Positions 14,984 to 22,422 of a DNA stretch of 34,582 nt are shown piece by piece. The first letter of the stretch is position 1. The number at the start of each line of letters is the position of its first letter. The translations under genes were made by a program, and so were the position numbers. The DNA comes from an uncultured Candidatus Melainabacteria bacterium (lineage in GTDB: Bacteria; Cyanobacteriota; Vampirovibrionia; Gastranaerophilales; Gastranaerophilaceae). The notes below the pieces were generated by a model that did no database searches, was not told where the DNA came from, and saw only the letters and a program-made list of their open reading frames with translations. The DNA lies in the NCBI GenBank assembly GCA_946055575.1, contig CAMGGL010000006.1:1-34582 (forward strand), written 5' to 3'.

Positions 14984-16888
14984 TTATGCTCTTTTGTTTT
15001 TTACATTTTCCATAATGTTTTCAAATTCTTTTTCATCAATTGTTTCTTTATCTAAGAGTTCTTTTGAAATTTCTTCAAGCATGTCCCTGTTTTCGGTTAA
15101 TAATTTTTTAGCCAGATCATATCTTTCGTCAACTATGCGTTTTATTTCCTGATCGATTTCAAAAGCAACCTGTTCTGAGTAGTCCCTTTGGTGCCCGAAA
15201 TCTCTGCCCATGAAAACATTTTCCTGATTTTTCCCGTAAGCCATCGTTCCGAGTTTTTCAGACATACCCCAAGCTGTAACCATTTTTCTTGCTAAATTTG
15301 TAACTTGAATTAAATCCTGACTTGCGCCTGTGCTTACATTATCTAGTCCGTAGACAATTTCTTCCGCAGCTCTGCCGCCCAGTCCTGATGTAATTTCAGC
15401 AAGGAGCTTAGCTTTACTTGTATAAACGCTTTCATCTTTTGGTCTTGCCCAAGTAACACCGCCAGCCATACCTCTAGGAATGATTGATACTTTATGAAGT
15501 TCATTTCCTTCAGGTAACAGTTTATGTAATAGAGCATGACCTACTTCGTGATAAGAAGTCAATTCCCTGTCAGCGTCAGTTAAAACACGGCTTTTCTTTT
15601 CTATACCCGCAATAACTCTATCAATAGACTCATCAACATCTTTCATTGTGATTTTTGATTGATTTTTTCTTGCTGCAAGCAAAGCGGATTCGTTAAGAAG
15701 ATTTTGCAAATCAGCTCCCGTAAATCCAGGAGTACGTTTTGCAAGAATTTTTAAATCAACATCTTTATCCAATTTTTTATTTTTAGCGTGAACTTCTAAG
15801 ATTTTTTCTCTGCCTTTTACGTCTGGAGCGTTGATATAAATCTGCCTATCAAATCTTCCCGGTCTTAAAAGAGCATTATCCAAAATGTCAGGTCTATTTG
15901 TTGCCGCAATAACGATAATATTAGTGTTTGCGTCAAATCCGTCCATTTCAACAAGTAATTGGTTAAGAGTTTGTTCTCTTTCGTCATGTCCGCCACCAAG
16001 ACCGGCACCTCTTTGTCTGCCGACAGCATCAATTTCATCAATAAATATAATGCAAGGTTGATGTTTTTTTGCCTGCTCAAACAAATCTCTTACGCGGCTT
16101 GCACCAACACCGACAAACATCTCAACAAAATCAGATCCTGAAATTGAGAAAAATGGAACACTGGCTTCACCTGCAACAGCTTTTGCCATTAAGGTTTTAC
16201 CTGTCCCCGGAGGTCCTACCAAAAGTACACCTTTTGGTATTTTCGCTCCTAATTTCATATATTTTTCGCCATTTTTTAGAAAATCGACTATTTCTTCAAG
16301 TTCTTTCTTTTCTTCGTCAATACCTGCAACATCATTAAAAGTTGTTTTTACTTTTGAATCTAACAACATTTTAGCTTTACTTTTACCAAATGACATTGCT
16401 TGAGTACCGCCGGCTTGAATTGCTTTTATCATAATTCCCAGTGATATAACCGCAAATAAAATTATTATAAATGTACCTATGCTTCCTGCAATCTGATTTG
16501 ATTCGGGGGCTTTACGCACCGTAATATCAGCACCTGATTCGTTTAATTTTGTCATTAACTCCTCATTATTTGCAGGAATTTGAACTTTATATTGTTGTAA
16601 CGGTGCTTGCTGATTCTTATTGTCAGGAGTCAAAAATGGAGATACCGTATTTTTTTGTTCTTTTTCTTCCACTTTTTTTTCTGTTTTTTGCTCTTTTGGT
16701 ACAGCAATGAGCATATCATCATATTTCTCAATTTTTACAAATTCTTTATTCTCAAGTTTTTGTAAAAAATTTGTATATGATATTTCAGTTGTTGATGTGG
16801 TCGGTCCGCTTTTTAAAATGGTCGAGATAAAGACCATAACTATAATAGCTAATAAAACGTACATCCCCATAGCTTGATTTTTTTGCAT
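14984..16888 (-). CDS. ftsH: ATP-dependent zinc metalloprotease FtsH
   Basis: A 634-residue membrane-anchored AAA+ protease that degrades misfolded or unassembled membrane proteins and selected regulators. It has an N-terminal membrane helix (about 8-26), a periplasmic segment with a Lys/Glu-rich stretch, and a second helix (about 134-158). The AAA domain shows Walker A GPPGTGKT (225-232), Walker [10 protein letters not shown] and the second region of homology [18 protein letters not shown]. The protease site is HEVGH (447-451). The short C-terminus ends KNKRA. The ATG follows GAAAGGTTAG. It has its own promoter and is monocistronic, with a shared terminator downstream. Confidence 0.97.
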
Positions 16889-16928
16889 ATAACTAACCTT
16901 TCAAAAAATATTAAACTTTTGCTATTAA

Positions 16929-16957
16929 ATTATAACCTAAACAGGTTTAAAAGTGAA
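16929..16957 (-). promoter_or_regulatory. Promoter of ftsH
   Basis: On the minus strand TATAAT (16934-16929) has a weak -35 TTCACT (16957-16952) 17 nt upstream. The leader would be about 35 nt and includes the ribosome binding site. Confidence 0.65.
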
Positions 16958-17007
16958 TGGTAAACTTGCCATATTCAATCCGGAGTTATTAGTTTGAGTA
17001 TTCTGAC

Positions 17008-18252
17008 TTAAATACAAGCAATGTAATTATCAATTTCTTCAGTAGAGTTCATCTCTGTTGTTGTAACCAAAATGTTTTTATTGTTTAGTTTTATACCGCC
17101 CAAAATCTTATTTTCTTTTAATTTTGAGAGAAATTTATCCGCATCCTCAACTTCAATAGTAAATTCATTAAAGAAGTTTTTGTTTAATGTTTTAATACCT
17201 TTAGCTGCTAATTTCTCAGAAAGATTGTGGGCATTTTTGGTTGACAGATAACTGGCTTGTTTAAAGCCTTGTTCTCCCATTACTGATAAGTAGAGGGTTG
17301 CGCACAGCCCTACTAATGCTTGATTAGAGCAAATGTTGCTGGTTGCTTTTTCTCTTTTTATGTGTTGTTCTCGGGTTTGAATTGTCAAACAAAATGCTTG
17401 TTTACCGTCTTTGTCTGTTGTTCTGCCTGCAAGTCTTCCGGGTAATTGCCTCATGAATTTTTCTTTGCATGCCATAAAGCCTGCCGTTGGGCCTCCAAAA
17501 TTCATTGGTATCCCTAATGTTTGAATGTCACCTACAACGATATCCGCACCATATTCTGCCGGGGGGGTTAATAATGATAATGTTGAAATATCGCAACAAA
17601 CGACAAGTAAACAATTTACAGGCTTGATGTCTAAAATTTCTCCATAGTAATCCGGTGTTTGAACTAATACGCATGCATATTCTGCAGTACCATCAGGTAT
17701 ATCGTCAACCCAATCAACAACAATAGATTGTGAATATGTATAAGTTTTAATAATTTCTTTGTATTCGGGGTTAAGTGAATTAAGTACACAGACCTTGTAT
17801 TTTTTAGATATTCTGCATGCCATAAGTATCGCTTCTGCACAAGCCGTTCCTGCATCATAAACAGTAGCGTTCGCAATGTCCATTCCCGTTAATCTGCATA
17901 TCATTGTTTGAAATTCGTACATGACCTGTAATGTTCCCTGAGAAATTTCAGGTTGATACGGAGTGTAGGCTGTATTAAATTCAAATCTGGATGCGACCTG
18001 TGAAATACACGCCGGGACGAATTTGTTGTAAATACCGCCTCCCATAAAGTTTGCATAATCTGCAACATTCATATTTGCAAGACCTTTTACTCTTTTTTGA
18101 GTTTCAAGTTCGCTCAGAGCATTTGGAAGATTTAGCTCTTTCATTCTTACGCTTTGCGGTATTTGTTTAAACAAATCTTCTACTGTATTAATACCTATAT
18201 CAGAGCACATATCTTTTTTTGTGCTTTCGTTATGTACTAAAAAATTTTTCAT
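17008..18252 (-). CDS. gcvPA: Glycine dehydrogenase (decarboxylating) subunit 1, P-protein alpha
   Basis: The N-terminal half of split P-protein, which decarboxylates glycine and passes the aminomethyl group to the lipoyl arm of GcvH. Recognisable features are MNVADYANFMGGGIYNKF near residue 60, YTPYQPEISQGTLQ near 95, GIPMNFGGPTAGF near 255 and the TREQHIKREKATSNICS segment near 300. At 414 residues it is slightly shorter than the usual 440-450. The PLP lysine of the complex lies in subunit 2, whose gene (gcvPB) is not next to it: ftsH follows. It starts 1 nt after the gcvH stop, so translation is probably coupled. Third gene of gcvT-gcvH-gcvPA. Confidence 0.95.
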   Translation of the reverse strand: MKNFLVHNESTKKDMCSDIGINTVEDLFKQIPQSVRMKELNLPNALSELETQKRVKGLANMNVADYANFMGGGIYNKFVPACISQVASRFEFNTAYTPYQPEISQGTLQVMYEFQTMICRLTGMDIANATVYDAGTACAEAILMACRISKKYKVCVLNSLNPEYKEIIKTYTYSQSIVVDWVDDIPDGTAEYACVLVQTPDYYGEILDIKPVNCLLVVCCDISTLSLLTPPAEYGADIVVGDIQTLGIPMNFGGPTAGFMACKEKFMRQLPGRLAGRTTDKDGKQAFCLTIQTREQHIKREKATSNICSNQALVGLCATLYLSVMGEQGFKQASYLSTKNAHNLSEKLAAKGIKTLNKNFFNEFTIEVEDADKFLSKLKENKILGGIKLNNKNILVTTTEMNSTEEIDNYIACI

Positions 18253-18253
18253 A

Positions 18254-18646
18254 TTATTCCAATTCTTCTTTATAGTCTGTGTATGTCAATAATTCTGATG
18301 TTTCAGTTTTTTCATCCGCAGTCGGCCGAATTTTTACCAGCCATCCGTTTCCCCAGCAATCTTCATTAAGACTTTCCGGAGCATCAACGAGTGCAGTATT
18401 AACTTCTGTGATTTCGCCGCTGATTGGCATATAAATTTCAGATGCTGCTTTAACCGATTCAATATTTGCAAATGCGCTACCTTTTTCAAACTTGTCACCT
18501 ATTTCAGGTAATTCCAAAAACACAATATCGCCAAGCTGATCAATTGCATAATCAGTTAAACCTATTGCATATTCTCCTGAATTTGCACCTTGTTTTGTTA
18601 TATATTCGTGTGATTTTGTACATAAAATTTCATCAGTAAAACTCAT
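18254..18646 (-). CDS. gcvH: Glycine cleavage system H protein
   Basis: A 130-residue lipoyl carrier that shuttles the aminomethyl group between P, T and L proteins. The lipoylation lysine lies in ANIESVKAASEIYMP (about residue 65), in the expected hairpin. The GDIVFLELPEIGD and SGEITEVN segments are typical. The ATG follows AAGGAGAAA; the gene lies 20 nt after gcvT and ends 1 nt before gcvPA. Length matches the family. Confidence 0.97.
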   Translation of the reverse strand: MSFTDEILCTKSHEYITKQGANSGEYAIGLTDYAIDQLGDIVFLELPEIGDKFEKGSAFANIESVKAASEIYMPISGEITEVNTALVDAPESLNEDCWGNGWLVKIRPTADEKTETSELLTYTDYKEELE

Positions 18647-18666
18647 TTTATTTCTCCTTATATTTA

Positions 18667-19767
18667 TTAAACATGATTTCTTTTTTCTACAAACGGTCGT
18701 TTAACAATTTGTGCATCGTGCAATTTTTCTCTTATCATAACTTGAACTGTAGCACCGATGCAAATTTCTTTGTTATTTTTAACATAAGCTAATGCAATAT
18801 TTTTCCCTGTACTTGGGGATACGCAGCCGCTTGTTACAATGCCGACTTTTTCACCTTTAAAATATATATCATAACCGTGTCTTGCAATATTTTTATCTAA
18901 CATCACAAGCCCGACAAGTTTCTTTTCAACACCGTTTAAAGCCTGTTGTAAGATTACATTTTTCCCGTTATAATCAACTTTTTTATCTTTTGGAACTGAC
19001 CATGAAAGCCCAGCTTCAATAGGAGTTGTATTTTCATCCAAGTCGTTTCCGTATAAGTGTAATGCTGCTTCAAGCCTCAATGTATCACGCGCCCCGAGTC
19101 CGATTGGCTTTATCCCGTATTCTTGACCTTTTTCAAGTATTTTATCCCATAAAAATTCAGAGTATTCGTTTTCAACAAGCAGTTCAAATCCATCTTCGCC
19201 GGTGTATCCTGTGCGAGAGGCAAGTAACTTTATCCCCTCAATGACTGCAGGTTTGATTGTAAATGATTTTTGACCTTCAATGTCATAGCCCATTTTCTTA
19301 ACTAAATCTATTGCCTTAGGACCTTGAACTGCTAATAGTGAATAATTATGTGATTGGTTATCTATTTTTACATCCAAACCTCTTTTATTACGTACAATCC
19401 AGTTTAAGTCTTCGTCAATTCTTGATGCGTTACAAATTACAAGATAATATTCAATACCCAGTTTGTAAATTATTAAATCGTCAATTAAACCGCCGTTCAA
19501 ATTAGGTAATTGGCAATAAACAGCTTTTTCGTAATCAAGTTTTGCAATGTCTTGCGGAACAATTTTATTAAGAAATTTTGTTGCATCCTTACCCGATATA
19601 AAGACTTCACCCATGTGTGAAACATCGAATAGACCTACTGTTTCTCTAACAGTTTTATGTTCATCAATAATTGATGTGTACTGAACTGGCATATGCCAGC
19701 CTGCAAAATCGACCATCTTTGCGCCAAGTTTAACATGTTTGTCATGCAGGTAAGTTTCTTTAACCAT
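18667..19767 (-). CDS. gcvT: Aminomethyltransferase (glycine cleavage T protein)
   Basis: A 366-residue T protein that releases ammonia from the H-protein-bound intermediate and makes 5,10-methylene-tetrahydrofolate. Visible motifs are FAGWHMPVQY near residue 20, FDVSHMGEV near 47, the folate-site acid in the TGYTGEDGFE stretch near 195, GLGARDTLRLEA near 225 and GIVTSGCVSPS in the C-terminal domain. The ATG follows GAGGGGG. It is the first gene of gcvT-gcvH-gcvPA. No glycine riboswitch fits in the 81-nt upstream gap, which instead has a TTGACA and a palindrome. Confidence 0.97.
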   Translation of the reverse strand: MVKETYLHDKHVKLGAKMVDFAGWHMPVQYTSIIDEHKTVRETVGLFDVSHMGEVFISGKDATKFLNKIVPQDIAKLDYEKAVYCQLPNLNGGLIDDLIIYKLGIEYYLVICNASRIDEDLNWIVRNKRGLDVKIDNQSHNYSLLAVQGPKAIDLVKKMGYDIEGQKSFTIKPAVIEGIKLLASRTGYTGEDGFELLVENEYSEFLWDKILEKGQEYGIKPIGLGARDTLRLEAALHLYGNDLDENTTPIEAGLSWSVPKDKKVDYNGKNVILQQALNGVEKKLVGLVMLDKNIARHGYDIYFKGEKVGIVTSGCVSPSTGKNIALAYVKNNKEICIGATVQVMIREKLHDAQIVKRPFVEKRNHV

Positions 19768-19848: not shown

Positions 19849-20136
19849 TTACAGGTTTTCTTTTATAAATTTGTGAGCCTCTATCACATCATCAAAATCT
19901 ATTGGTGCCGGACCGTCAATTATTTCAAGTGGTGAATGCTTTGTGGCTTTTTTATTGTAATTAAGTATAATTTCCCCAAAATCCTTATTGCATTTTTGAC
20001 ATTGTAATTTACAAATTTTTATATCATTTTCATTGCGAATTTCTGTTAAATCATCAATCGTAAATTCATTTTTGCATCTTGAACAGCAAAGCCCTGAAAA
20101 CAGTATTCTAAAGTCCTTTTGTGTCAATTTTTTCAT
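19849..20136 (-). CDS. Small zinc-ribbon-like protein of unknown function
   Basis: A 95-residue protein I do not recognise. Two Cys pairs, CSRC near residue 18 and CQKC near 51, sit in a spacing typical of a zinc ribbon. The C-terminus (IDGPAPIDFDDVIEAHKFIKENL, in part) looks like an acidic loop and a helix. No signal peptide or membrane segment. TAAAAT lies exactly 6 nt before the ATG with no Shine-Dalgarno, so the mRNA is probably leaderless. It is upstream of gcvT in the same direction, but a promoter between them argues against a shared role. Confidence 0.75.
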   Translation of the reverse strand: MKKLTQKDFRILFSGLCCSRCKNEFTIDDLTEIRNENDIKICKLQCQKCNKDFGEIILNYNKKATKHSPLEIIDGPAPIDFDDVIEAHKFIKENL

Positions 20137-20142
20137 ATCATT

Positions 20143-20148
20143 ATTTTA
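20143..20148 (-). promoter_or_regulatory. -10 element of the zinc-ribbon gene, leaderless geometry
   Basis: Minus-strand TAAAAT (20148-20143) ends exactly 6 nt before the ATG at 20136; no Shine-Dalgarno lies between. Confidence 0.5.
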
Positions 20149-20244
20149 TATTAACTTTTGTAAATTTTTCAACTATTTGGTCTAATTATTGTTATTTTTC
20201 TTAAAATATTGGGATTAATATACATGTAACCAAAGGAGGTTATG

Positions 20245-20337
20245 ATGGCTATTAATCTGATTTTATTTGGATTTATCGTGTACACAGCGTTGATTGTTGT
20301 GCCGAGCATCTGGGAAGAATTAACTACTGAATCATAG
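20245..20337 (+). CDS. Small single-pass membrane peptide, 30 residues
   Basis: A short reading frame behind a perfect AAAGGAGG (20232-20239). The ATG at 20245 is 5 nt from the Shine-Dalgarno; another at 20242 is only 2 nt away. From 20245 it encodes MAINLILFGF, IVYTALIVVP, SIWEELTTES in three tens: one hydrophobic helix (about residues 3-20) and an acidic C-terminus, ending in TAG. The quality of the ribosome binding site, compared with the leaderless neighbours, argues for translation. A possible -10 TAATAT lies at 20216-20221, and a hairpin with T-run follows at 20356. I do not recognise the family; size and shape recall small membrane subunits or type I toxin-like peptides, but nothing supports either function. 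Confidence 0.55.
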   Translation: MAINLILFGFIVYTALIVVPSIWEELTTES

Positions 20338-20355
20338 TAAGTTGATTTAACCGGA

Positions 20356-20380
20356 GAAAAATTTTAAATTTTTCGTTTTT
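20356..20380 (+). terminator. Possible terminator after the small membrane peptide gene
   Basis: GAAAAATT pairs with AATTTTTC (8 bp, 3-nt loop) and is followed by GTTTTT, 18 nt past the TAG. The stem is AT-rich and weak. Bases 20422-20438 hold another 7-bp dyad, CGCTTAT/ATAAGCG with a 3-nt loop, without a T-run. Confidence 0.45.
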
Positions 20381-20493
20381 GACATTTAAGAGAGTTTGAG
20401 CAGTTTTTAGTGTTAAATATACGCTTATTTGATAAGCGGTAAGTTTGTTGTGCTTTAATTAGATGTTCAAACGGTTTATAATGTAAAATATTT

Positions 20494-20517
20494 TTCTGAA
20501 ACAAGTTCAGAATGACA
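20494..20517. repeat. REP-like palindromic element before mnmG
   Basis: TTCTGAA, 5 nt, TTCAGAA forms a perfect 7-bp dyad continued by TGACA. The reverse complement reads TGTCATTCTGAACTTG then TTTCAGAA, which matches from memory a palindromic fragment dispersed between genes in diverse bacteria. Only one copy was noticed here, so its repeat nature in this genome is inferred. Confidence 0.5.
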
Positions 20518-20526
20518 ATTTTGCAC

Positions 20527-20532
20527 TATAAT
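20527..20532 (+). promoter_or_regulatory. -10 element of mnmG, leaderless geometry
   Basis: Perfect TATAAT ends exactly 6 nt before the ATG at 20539. This supports 20539 rather than the upstream in-frame ATG at 20512, which would lie upstream of the transcription start and abut the palindrome. Confidence 0.65.
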
Positions 20533-20538
20533 ATAGTT

Positions 20539-22422
20539 ATGAATTACTTAAAAAACACATTTGATATAATCGTTGTCGGGGCAGGACATGCCGGTTGTGA
20601 AGCTGCTTTAGCGTGTGCAAAATTAGGAATGAAGGTGCTTTTATGCACACTTAATGTTGATAATATTGCGCTGCAACCTTGTAATCCAGCAGTTGGAGGC
20701 CCTGCAAAATCAACTTTAGTCAGAGAAATTGATGCTTTGGGCGGGGTAATGGGAGAAGTTACAGATGCTACGTATCTGCAAATGAAAGTTTTAAATTCTT
20801 CTAAAGGTCCCGCAGTAAGAGCCTTGAGAGCTCAGTCCGATAAGGCTGAATACTCCAGATATATGCGAAATTTAATTGAAAGTAATTCAAATATTTACTT
20901 GAAACAATGTTGTATTACCGAGTTATTAGTTGAGAATGATACTATTGTCGGTGCGGTAGATGAATTTGGTATAGAATATTCATCAAAAGCTGTTGTACTG
21001 ACAACGGGCACCTCGCTTGAAGGTCGGATTTTTGTAGGATTACGTTCATATAGTGCAGGCAGACTTGGAGAAAAAGCAGCAATTGGATTATCAGAGTCCT
21101 TACACAAACTCGGGATTCAAACTAAAAAACTTAAAACAGGTACGCCTGCAAGGATTGATAAAAGAACGATTGACTATTCAAAAATGACATTTCAACCAGG
21201 AGATGAGGAATTAAGCTTTTTTTCGTTTAAACCTAATCGCCCGATAAGAAAAACTTATCCTTGTTATTTGACAAGAACAACAGAGGAAACTCATGCAATA
21301 ATCAAAGCAAATCTTGATAAATCGCCGATGTTTCAGGGCTTAATACATGGTGTAGGTCCAAGATATTGCCCGTCAATTGAGGATAAAATTGTACGTTTTG
21401 CCTCAAATCCGTCACATCACATTTTTATTGAGCCTGAGGGACTTGGTACTTATGAAACATATATTCAAGGTTTTTCGACGAGTTTACCTGCTGATGTGCA
21501 GGAGAAAATGATTAGAAGTTTGCCGGGACTTGAAAATGCTCATATAATTAAACCTGCTTATGCTGTTGAATACGATTATGTGCCTGCCGTTCAAACTACC
21601 CATTCTTTAATGTCAAAAAAGATAAAAGGTTTGTTTTTTGGAGGCCAAATTAATGGTACAAGCGGTTATGAAGAAGCTGCAGCTCAAGGATTAATTGCAG
21701 GTATAAATGCGTTTAACTATCTTAACGGTTCTGAAATGCTTGAATTATCAAGAAGCTCATCTTATACAGGAACATTGATTGATGATTTGGTGACAAAAGA
21801 TATTCAGGATCCATATAGAATGTTGACATCTCGTTCTGAATATAGATTATTACTACGTCAGGATAACGCTGATGAACGATTAACTCCAATCGGGTATAAA
21901 ATCGGGCTAATTGATGATGCTCAATATGAAATATATAAAAATAAACAAAGATTTATAAAAGAGGAAAAAGAAAGATTAGACGCTTTAAAAATTCCTGCAA
22001 ATGATGAAGTTAATTCAATTTTGGCAAAATATGAAGAACATATTGAGCGAGGAATGAGAGCTTCTGAATTGTTAAAACGACCTAATGTGACATATAGAAT
22101 TTTGCAAGAACTTGATGAGGGCACACGCTTATTGAATGTTCCAAAAGACGTCTTTGAACAGGTAGAAGTTATTATAAAGTATGACGGTTATATAAAACGT
22201 CAACAGGATCAGGTGGAAAATGCTGATAAGCTTGAGAAATTTAAAATACCTGAAAATATTGATTATTTCAATATTGATCATATTTCATCAGAAACAAAAG
22301 AAAAACTTGATAAGATTAGACCTAAAACTTTAGCTCAAGCGGCTCGGATTGGTGGGGTAAAACCTGCAGATATTTCTATTCTGATGGTCATGCTTGATAG
22401 AAATACCGTTGCTAGAAAGTAG
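20539..22422 (+). CDS. mnmG: tRNA uridine 5-carboxymethylaminomethyl modification enzyme MnmG
   Basis: FAD-dependent MnmG (GidA) works with MnmE to install the cmnm5 group on wobble U34 of tRNAs. From 20539 it is 627 residues (MNYLKNTFDIIVVGAGHAG), the usual size, with the dinucleotide-binding GAGHAG near residue 14. CNPAVGGPAKSTLVREID near 48, KTGTPARID near 200, FGGQINGTSGYEEAAAQG near 370 and the TSRSEYRLLLRQDNAD segment near 430 are all diagnostic. An ATG 27 nt upstream is in frame but is disfavoured because the TATAAT lies between the two. The 3' end overlaps the convergent formyltransferase gene by 11 bases. Confidence 0.97.
   Translation: MNYLKNTFDIIVVGAGHAGCEAALACAKLGMKVLLCTLNVDNIALQPCNPAVGGPAKSTLVREIDALGGVMGEVTDATYLQMKVLNSSKGPAVRALRAQSDKAEYSRYMRNLIESNSNIYLKQCCITELLVENDTIVGAVDEFGIEYSSKAVVLTTGTSLEGRIFVGLRSYSAGRLGEKAAIGLSESLHKLGIQTKKLKTGTPARIDKRTIDYSKMTFQPGDEELSFFSFKPNRPIRKTYPCYLTRTTEETHAIIKANLDKSPMFQGLIHGVGPRYCPSIEDKIVRFASNPSHHIFIEPEGLGTYETYIQGFSTSLPADVQEKMIRSLPGLENAHIIKPAYAVEYDYVPAVQTTHSLMSKKIKGLFFGGQINGTSGYEEAAAQGLIAGINAFNYLNGSEMLELSRSSSYTGTLIDDLVTKDIQDPYRMLTSRSEYRLLLRQDNADERLTPIGYKIGLIDDAQYEIYKNKQRFIKEEKERLDALKIPANDEVNSILAKYEEHIERGMRASELLKRPNVTYRILQELDEGTRLLNVPKDVFEQVEVIIKYDGYIKRQQDQVENADKLEKFKIPENIDYFNIDHISSETKEKLDKIRPKTLAQAARIGGVKPADISILMVMLDRNTVARK

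Follow-up and report, generated by a model that had tools for sequence, protein, structure and literature searches.

A probable single-pass membrane microprotein of about 30 residues, almost unchanged in sequence across a family of Gastranaerophilales

Does a frame of only 30 codons, lying in an intergenic gap and left out of the annotation, encode a protein, and if it does, what might that protein do? The question arises in a 34,582-nt stretch of DNA from an uncultured Candidatus Melainabacteria bacterium (hereafter the window), where a gap of 375 nt (20137-20511) separates a 95-aa gene on the minus strand from mnmG on the plus strand. A sequence-only reading had placed in this gap a gene for a 30-residue membrane peptide behind a perfect Shine-Dalgarno sequence, and the layout is as it described: AAAGGAGG at 20232-20239 is followed by ATGATGGCT, and the ATG that stands 5 nt after the Shine-Dalgarno sequence, at 20245, opens a frame that translates as (M)MAINLILFGFIVYTALIVVPSIWEELTTES and ends with TAG. 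The product has 30 residues and is hydrophobic, with a proline at position 20 and an acidic tail, and the single hydrophobic helix that had been claimed for it is returned by structure prediction (see below). The features of the locus are as follows.

19849..20136, minus strand: zinc-ribbon protein gene (95 aa, four cysteines), head-to-head neighbour, divergent from the microprotein gene
20211..20230, plus strand: conserved GGGATTAATATACATGTAAC block, probable -10 promoter region, suggested by the upstream alignment
20232..20239, plus strand: Shine-Dalgarno sequence AAAGGAGG, read from the sequence
20242..20244, plus strand: extra in-frame ATG directly upstream of the conserved start, seen in the window's genome alone among those read
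20245..20337, plus strand: microprotein gene, MAINLILFGFIVYTALIVVPSIWEELTTES and TAG, supported by frame conservation, flanks, homologues and the AlphaFold2 helix
20356..20385, plus strand: weak A/T-rich hairpin 3' of the microprotein stop, its role as a terminator unsupported
20512-22422, plus strand: mnmG (PF01134, E 3.6e-160)

We find that the frame is almost certainly a real, unannotated protein gene. It is open in all 41 congeners compared, and the other five frames contain stops in 25-41 of the 41. Mean pairwise identity among these congeners is 92%, 99.8% and 57% at the first, second and third codon positions, respectively, and directly 3' of the stop it is about 31%, versus 82% in the ribosome-binding stretch. 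The earlier argument that such a frame is unlikely by chance is borne out by the number of amino-acid changes per pair of congeners, which is 1.19 as observed and 9.67 as expected under randomly placed substitutions. Across 47 members that share one core (46 distinct coding sequences), dN/dS has a median of approximately 0.018, and of the 28 sites at each codon position, 9 vary at the first, 1 at the second and 27 at the third. Selection thus acts on the amino acids, not on the DNA or RNA, and it is extreme purifying selection. We also looked for the opposite pattern, that is an unconserved frame with no codon bias and with stops, and the outcome favours a gene. Identity of the microprotein is 90-100% within the genus, versus mostly 83-95% for MnmG and roughly 47-66%, again within the genus, for the zinc-ribbon protein. 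A peptide of about 30 residues is therefore more constrained than the core tRNA-modification enzyme encoded next to it, and yet nothing in Pfam, NCBIfam or the PDB matches it significantly. In a protein of this size, constraint of that degree implies that an important, fixed interaction is being maintained. Together with its near-universal presence in the clade (below), codon-level selection strongly supports the view of this locus as a real gene for a small membrane peptide; microgenes with a strong Shine-Dalgarno sequence can be real in these genomes, and annotation should keep them.

The start codon can be assigned by comparison with relatives. In the window's genome, and in no other that we read, the frame begins with a tandem ATGATG (20242-20247), so that the Shine-Dalgarno sequence is 2 nt from the first ATG (20242) and 5 nt from the second (20245); relatives have a single ATG. 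Because the relatives lack an ATG where the window has its first one (they mostly have ATC there, and most read TTATC-ATG), it is the second ATG, at 20245, that is conserved as the start. The ATG at 20242, only 2 nt from the Shine-Dalgarno sequence, is probably not the main start. The mean of 82% given above applies to the 16 nt 5' of the ATG, versus 44% further upstream. Immediately 5' of the Shine-Dalgarno sequence, the GGGATTAATATACATGTAAC block aligns with GGGTATAATATA of other genera, and at 20214-20219 it reads ATTAAT where several other genera have TATAAT in the upstream alignment. This block is a probable -10 promoter element, which would leave a short leader; a generic promoter scan made no call at this block. 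The weak terminator-like hairpin that had been noted after the TAG did not survive scrutiny, since it scores z +1.6 relative to shuffled sequences, 195 of 200 of which fold at least as well, and a pattern scan for terminators lists none on the plus strand. The earlier remark that the neighbouring genes are leaderless holds for the two immediate neighbours, which have no Shine-Dalgarno sequence at their first listed start, but it is not general, because about 10 of the 31 other listed open reading frames in the window have a match of at least 5 nt at normal distance.

How widely is the microprotein distributed? With the peptide as query, matches at E up to 1 were obtained in 64 of 98 relatives, most of them strong. 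With a first profile, 342 of the 383 genomes from the order Gastranaerophilales (the gut "Melainabacteria"), and 284 of the 306 good ones, gave a match, nearly always as a single copy. We then used a wider profile, an alignment of 39 diverse members, on a phylum-wide draw of genomes, and it matched 147 of the 151 genomes of the window's own family and one of 188 genomes outside it, there inside a 369-aa frame. In a scan of GTDB species genomes, 145 loci match, and the 80 that were kept are mostly titled Gastranaerophilales or Melainabacteria MAGs or gut bacteria. In its own family, the microprotein is near-universal and mostly single-copy; four well-assembled genomes of that family are without it. 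A second family of the order also carries it, making two in all. There was no match at significant E in the other sampled families of the order or in the rest of the class, the profile did not find it in about 180 other genomes of the phylum, photosynthetic cyanobacteria included, and none was found 5' of the zinc-ribbon genes that other families and orders carry. At the sensitivity of these profiles the microprotein is clade-restricted, and because models of 31 positions lose distant relatives, absence elsewhere is weaker evidence than presence. One weak match from a further family within the class (L148; E 0.011, VLELMLFGFIFYLIFLLVP...) looks similar but has no clear ribosome binding site and was set aside as a chance match. 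Two matching records, titled Fusobacterium sp. CAG:439 and Muribaculaceae bacterium, have Gastranaerophilales-like sequence and are probably mislabelled or contaminated bins. In addition, one viral-classed contig from IMG/VR (L276) holds the microprotein gene and the zinc-ribbon gene side by side; given that the zinc-ribbon gene is carried too, this is probably bacterial flanking DNA and not a phage gene. By eye, toxin-antitoxin-like genes lie nearby on the same contig.

Searches of known families returned no significant Pfam, NCBIfam or PDB match to the microprotein, and no Rfam family in the locus. The Pfam scan covered 14 members at E up to 10, a range in which most matches weaker than about 0.1 are lost to the HMMER filters. 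The Pfam matches at E 0.006-0.07, fungal ATP synthase protein 8 among them, as well as PHROG matches (E 0.002-0.16), were rejected as being at chance level for such hydrophobic peptides, and there is no convincing phage family among them. Literature searches on small proteins of Melainabacteria and Gastranaerophilales turned up no relevant work; the peptide may be an unnamed entry in published small-protein catalogues.

To describe the peptide, we examined the 39 diverse members, every one of which has Tyr13 and Pro20. By weighted frequency Leu5 is present in 88% and Glu or Asp at position 24 in more than 90%; position 9 is occupied by Gly, Ala, Ser or Cys. Along the helix, conservation shows a helical moment (permutation p = 0.008, a moderate value from one alignment), and the helix face that carries it consists of G9, Y13, L16, P20 and E24. 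AlphaFold2 models a single helix at residues 2-29 (mean pLDDT 93.8), and we predict one transmembrane helix at about residues 3-23. As read from the sequence, the peptide has the general features of single-pass small membrane proteins, namely a length of at most 50 residues, a single hydrophobic helix and conservation as a coding frame. None of the 39 members has Lys or Arg before Pro20, and most have one after it, so by the positive-inside rule the predicted topology is N-out/C-in; the N-terminus, which is acidic or neutral, would then lie outside, and the tail, which varies, in the cytoplasm. In the window's own genus the peptide carries no positive charge, and its predicted topology therefore rests on the relatives. 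At nine loci in five genera the microprotein is longer, at about 50 residues, and has the conserved tail ...SEEFKxxYFxHL...NSYGK, which may point to the partner.

Downstream genes of the microprotein differ among genera and are often on the other strand; by eye, we take those found elsewhere to be bioA-like, rsmH-like, cysS-like, tdk-like and uvrA-like genes, among others. Because they vary so widely, the microprotein is not tied to one operon and appears monocistronic. Based on these data, we propose as the probable explanation that the gene encodes a monocistronic single-pass membrane microprotein of an orphan Gastranaerophilales family, which serves a fixed membrane partner as constitutive accessory subunit or regulator. 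A role as subunit or regulator of a membrane complex is plausible. The conserved face (Leu5, Gly9, Tyr13, Leu16, Pro20 and Glu24) would dock onto an integral-membrane protein that is always the same, leaving the tail on the cytoplasmic side, and the microprotein would stabilise or tune this partner as KdpF, CydX and AcrZ do theirs. The partner would be a housekeeping membrane machine found across the clade, for example ATP synthase, Sec, an envelope-assembly complex or FtsH. A more ambitious version, which we offer only tentatively and do not expect to be correct, is that a universal membrane machine, for example ATP synthase or the Sec translocon, gained a clade-specific and probably essential helix subunit when these Gastranaerophilales families arose, which would mark a lineage-specific rebuild of that machine in non-photosynthetic relatives of cyanobacteria.

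The gene content of the family narrows the choice of partners. CydA is absent from all 60 family genomes examined, so cytochrome bd is not an obligate partner and the microprotein is not CydX. A NuoH-type subunit is present in 30 of the 60, and genomes without NuoH (G051, G054, G057 and others) keep the microprotein, so neither complex I nor a membrane hydrogenase is an obligate partner; identity with a small subunit of these complexes (NdhP/NdhQ type) was rejected as an obligate role given that half of the relatives lack NuoH. ATP synthase subunit a (AtpB), found in 59 of 60, is compatible with ATP synthase as a candidate partner and gives no discrimination. In the mechanism that we favour, the partner would be neither cytochrome bd nor a photosystem, and complex I and membrane hydrogenases would not be obligate partners. 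To identify it would be to uncover a lineage-specific component of a membrane machine among non-photosynthetic relatives of cyanobacteria.

Several known small subunits resemble the microprotein in general form. CydX is likewise a single helix of 30-40 residues in which a few aromatic and Gly positions are conserved; an acidic residue follows the helix, and annotation often omits the protein. However, it is a cydAB operon gene with the motif YxxWxxGx15E/D (PMC4325964), whereas the microprotein has G-x3-Y-x6-P-x3-E/D and stands alone, and with a different motif and no cytochrome bd the identity was rejected. In KdpF of the K+-transporting ATPase (PDB 6hra chain D), a helix of 29 residues, GYLVYALI resembles GFIVYTALI of the microprotein, but the microprotein has no Pfam or NCBIfam match, the profile comparison gives 9%, reached by 4 of 40 shuffles, and the neighbours of the microprotein are mnmG and the zinc-ribbon gene, not kdp genes. 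Finally, one study (PMC7267776) describes AcrZ, the AcrB accessory peptide, as a small single helix that acts on a large membrane protein. AcrZ has no meaningful sequence similarity to the microprotein (2% in the profile comparison) and serves as a model for how the latter may work.

The conserved face could result from self-association instead. A helix that forms a homodimer or small homo-oligomer and works alone, for example in organising lipids or conducting ions, would need no larger partner, and a conserved face of the form small-x3-Tyr could pack against itself in the product of a monocistronic gene. Nevertheless, the invariant Pro20, the near-invariant Glu24 at the membrane border and the near-zero amino-acid change suggest a large fixed interface, and we consider a self-sufficient helix unlikely.

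Another explanation starts from the neighbouring gene, with which the microprotein might form a two-gene module in which the divergently encoded zinc-ribbon protein is tethered to it or regulates it. The microprotein gene is usually head-to-head with this gene, and the order persists in two families and at most of the 80 named loci, upstream of which we read 75 distinct zinc-ribbon proteins on the opposite strand. The family, to which the protein at 19849-20136 and loci L150-L190 belong, has four conserved cysteines and a conserved C-terminal 'DDV(I/L)DAHxF' helix; it has no significant Pfam or NCBIfam match, and the AlphaFold2 model of the window's member (pLDDT 85.8) surrounds the cysteines with three strands and has a helix at the C-terminus. 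Three findings argue against the module and make it quite unlikely: several genera (G152, G144, G147, G224, G172 and G164) keep the microprotein without a detectable zinc-ribbon gene, the zinc-ribbon family is present across the class, including where no microprotein is seen upstream, and its sequence evolves much faster. The zinc-ribbon gene is a conserved but separable neighbour, and the link is genomic. Further along the minus strand, the window carries an FtsH-type AAA protease gene (14984-16888) beside genes for the glycine cleavage P-, H- and T-proteins (14984-19767 in all). In other bacteria, small membrane peptides are known to target FtsH.

A short hydrophobic peptide behind a strong ribosome binding site might also be a type I toxin or a signalling peptide, an option that the sequence-only reading had listed. 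We regard this as very improbable, because the peptide is mostly single-copy, almost invariant under strong purifying selection and carried by nearly the whole family, there is no Rfam match in the locus and no positively charged tail in the genus, and no phage family is convincing.

The faint likeness to small photosystem or cytochrome subunits that had been pointed out was also followed up. PsbM is a short single helix with a VPS-like stretch and GF...VP-like spacing, and PsbM and PetL score highest among the 20 single-helix peptides of a comparison panel. In the profile-profile comparison, the microprotein matches PsbM with 26% probability over 15 columns, a value equalled by 2-4 of 150 column-shuffled PsbM profiles and thus at the level of the best shuffles; PetL (31%) and PsbT (15%) fall in the same range. 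The PsbM model PF05151 has no match in the window's genome or in a second one (G064) and is clear in four photosynthetic cyanobacteria, and the Pfam scan of 14 members gave no match to small photosystem or cytochrome/b6f families (PetL/PetN/PetG, PsbM and others). In addition, the microprotein family is absent from the sampled photosynthetic cyanobacteria and from other class members, and published Melainabacteria genomes are without photosynthetic machinery and lack photosystems, cytochromes and quinones (PMC3787301). A relict of a PsbM/PetL-type subunit is hence scarcely credible; the identity is rejected, and the microprotein is not a photosynthesis remnant.

Equally hard to credit is a regulatory leader peptide, attenuator or conserved non-coding element, for which a short frame with a strong Shine-Dalgarno sequence upstream of mnmG might speak, given that selection is at the amino-acid level, the locus has no RNA family in Rfam and no stable hairpin, and the downstream gene differs among genera, which also led us to reject an mnmG leader peptide. 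The part of the gap 5' of mnmG contains an inverted repeat, CGCTTATTTGATAAGCG, at 20422-20438, which received a terminator-like call on the minus strand only.
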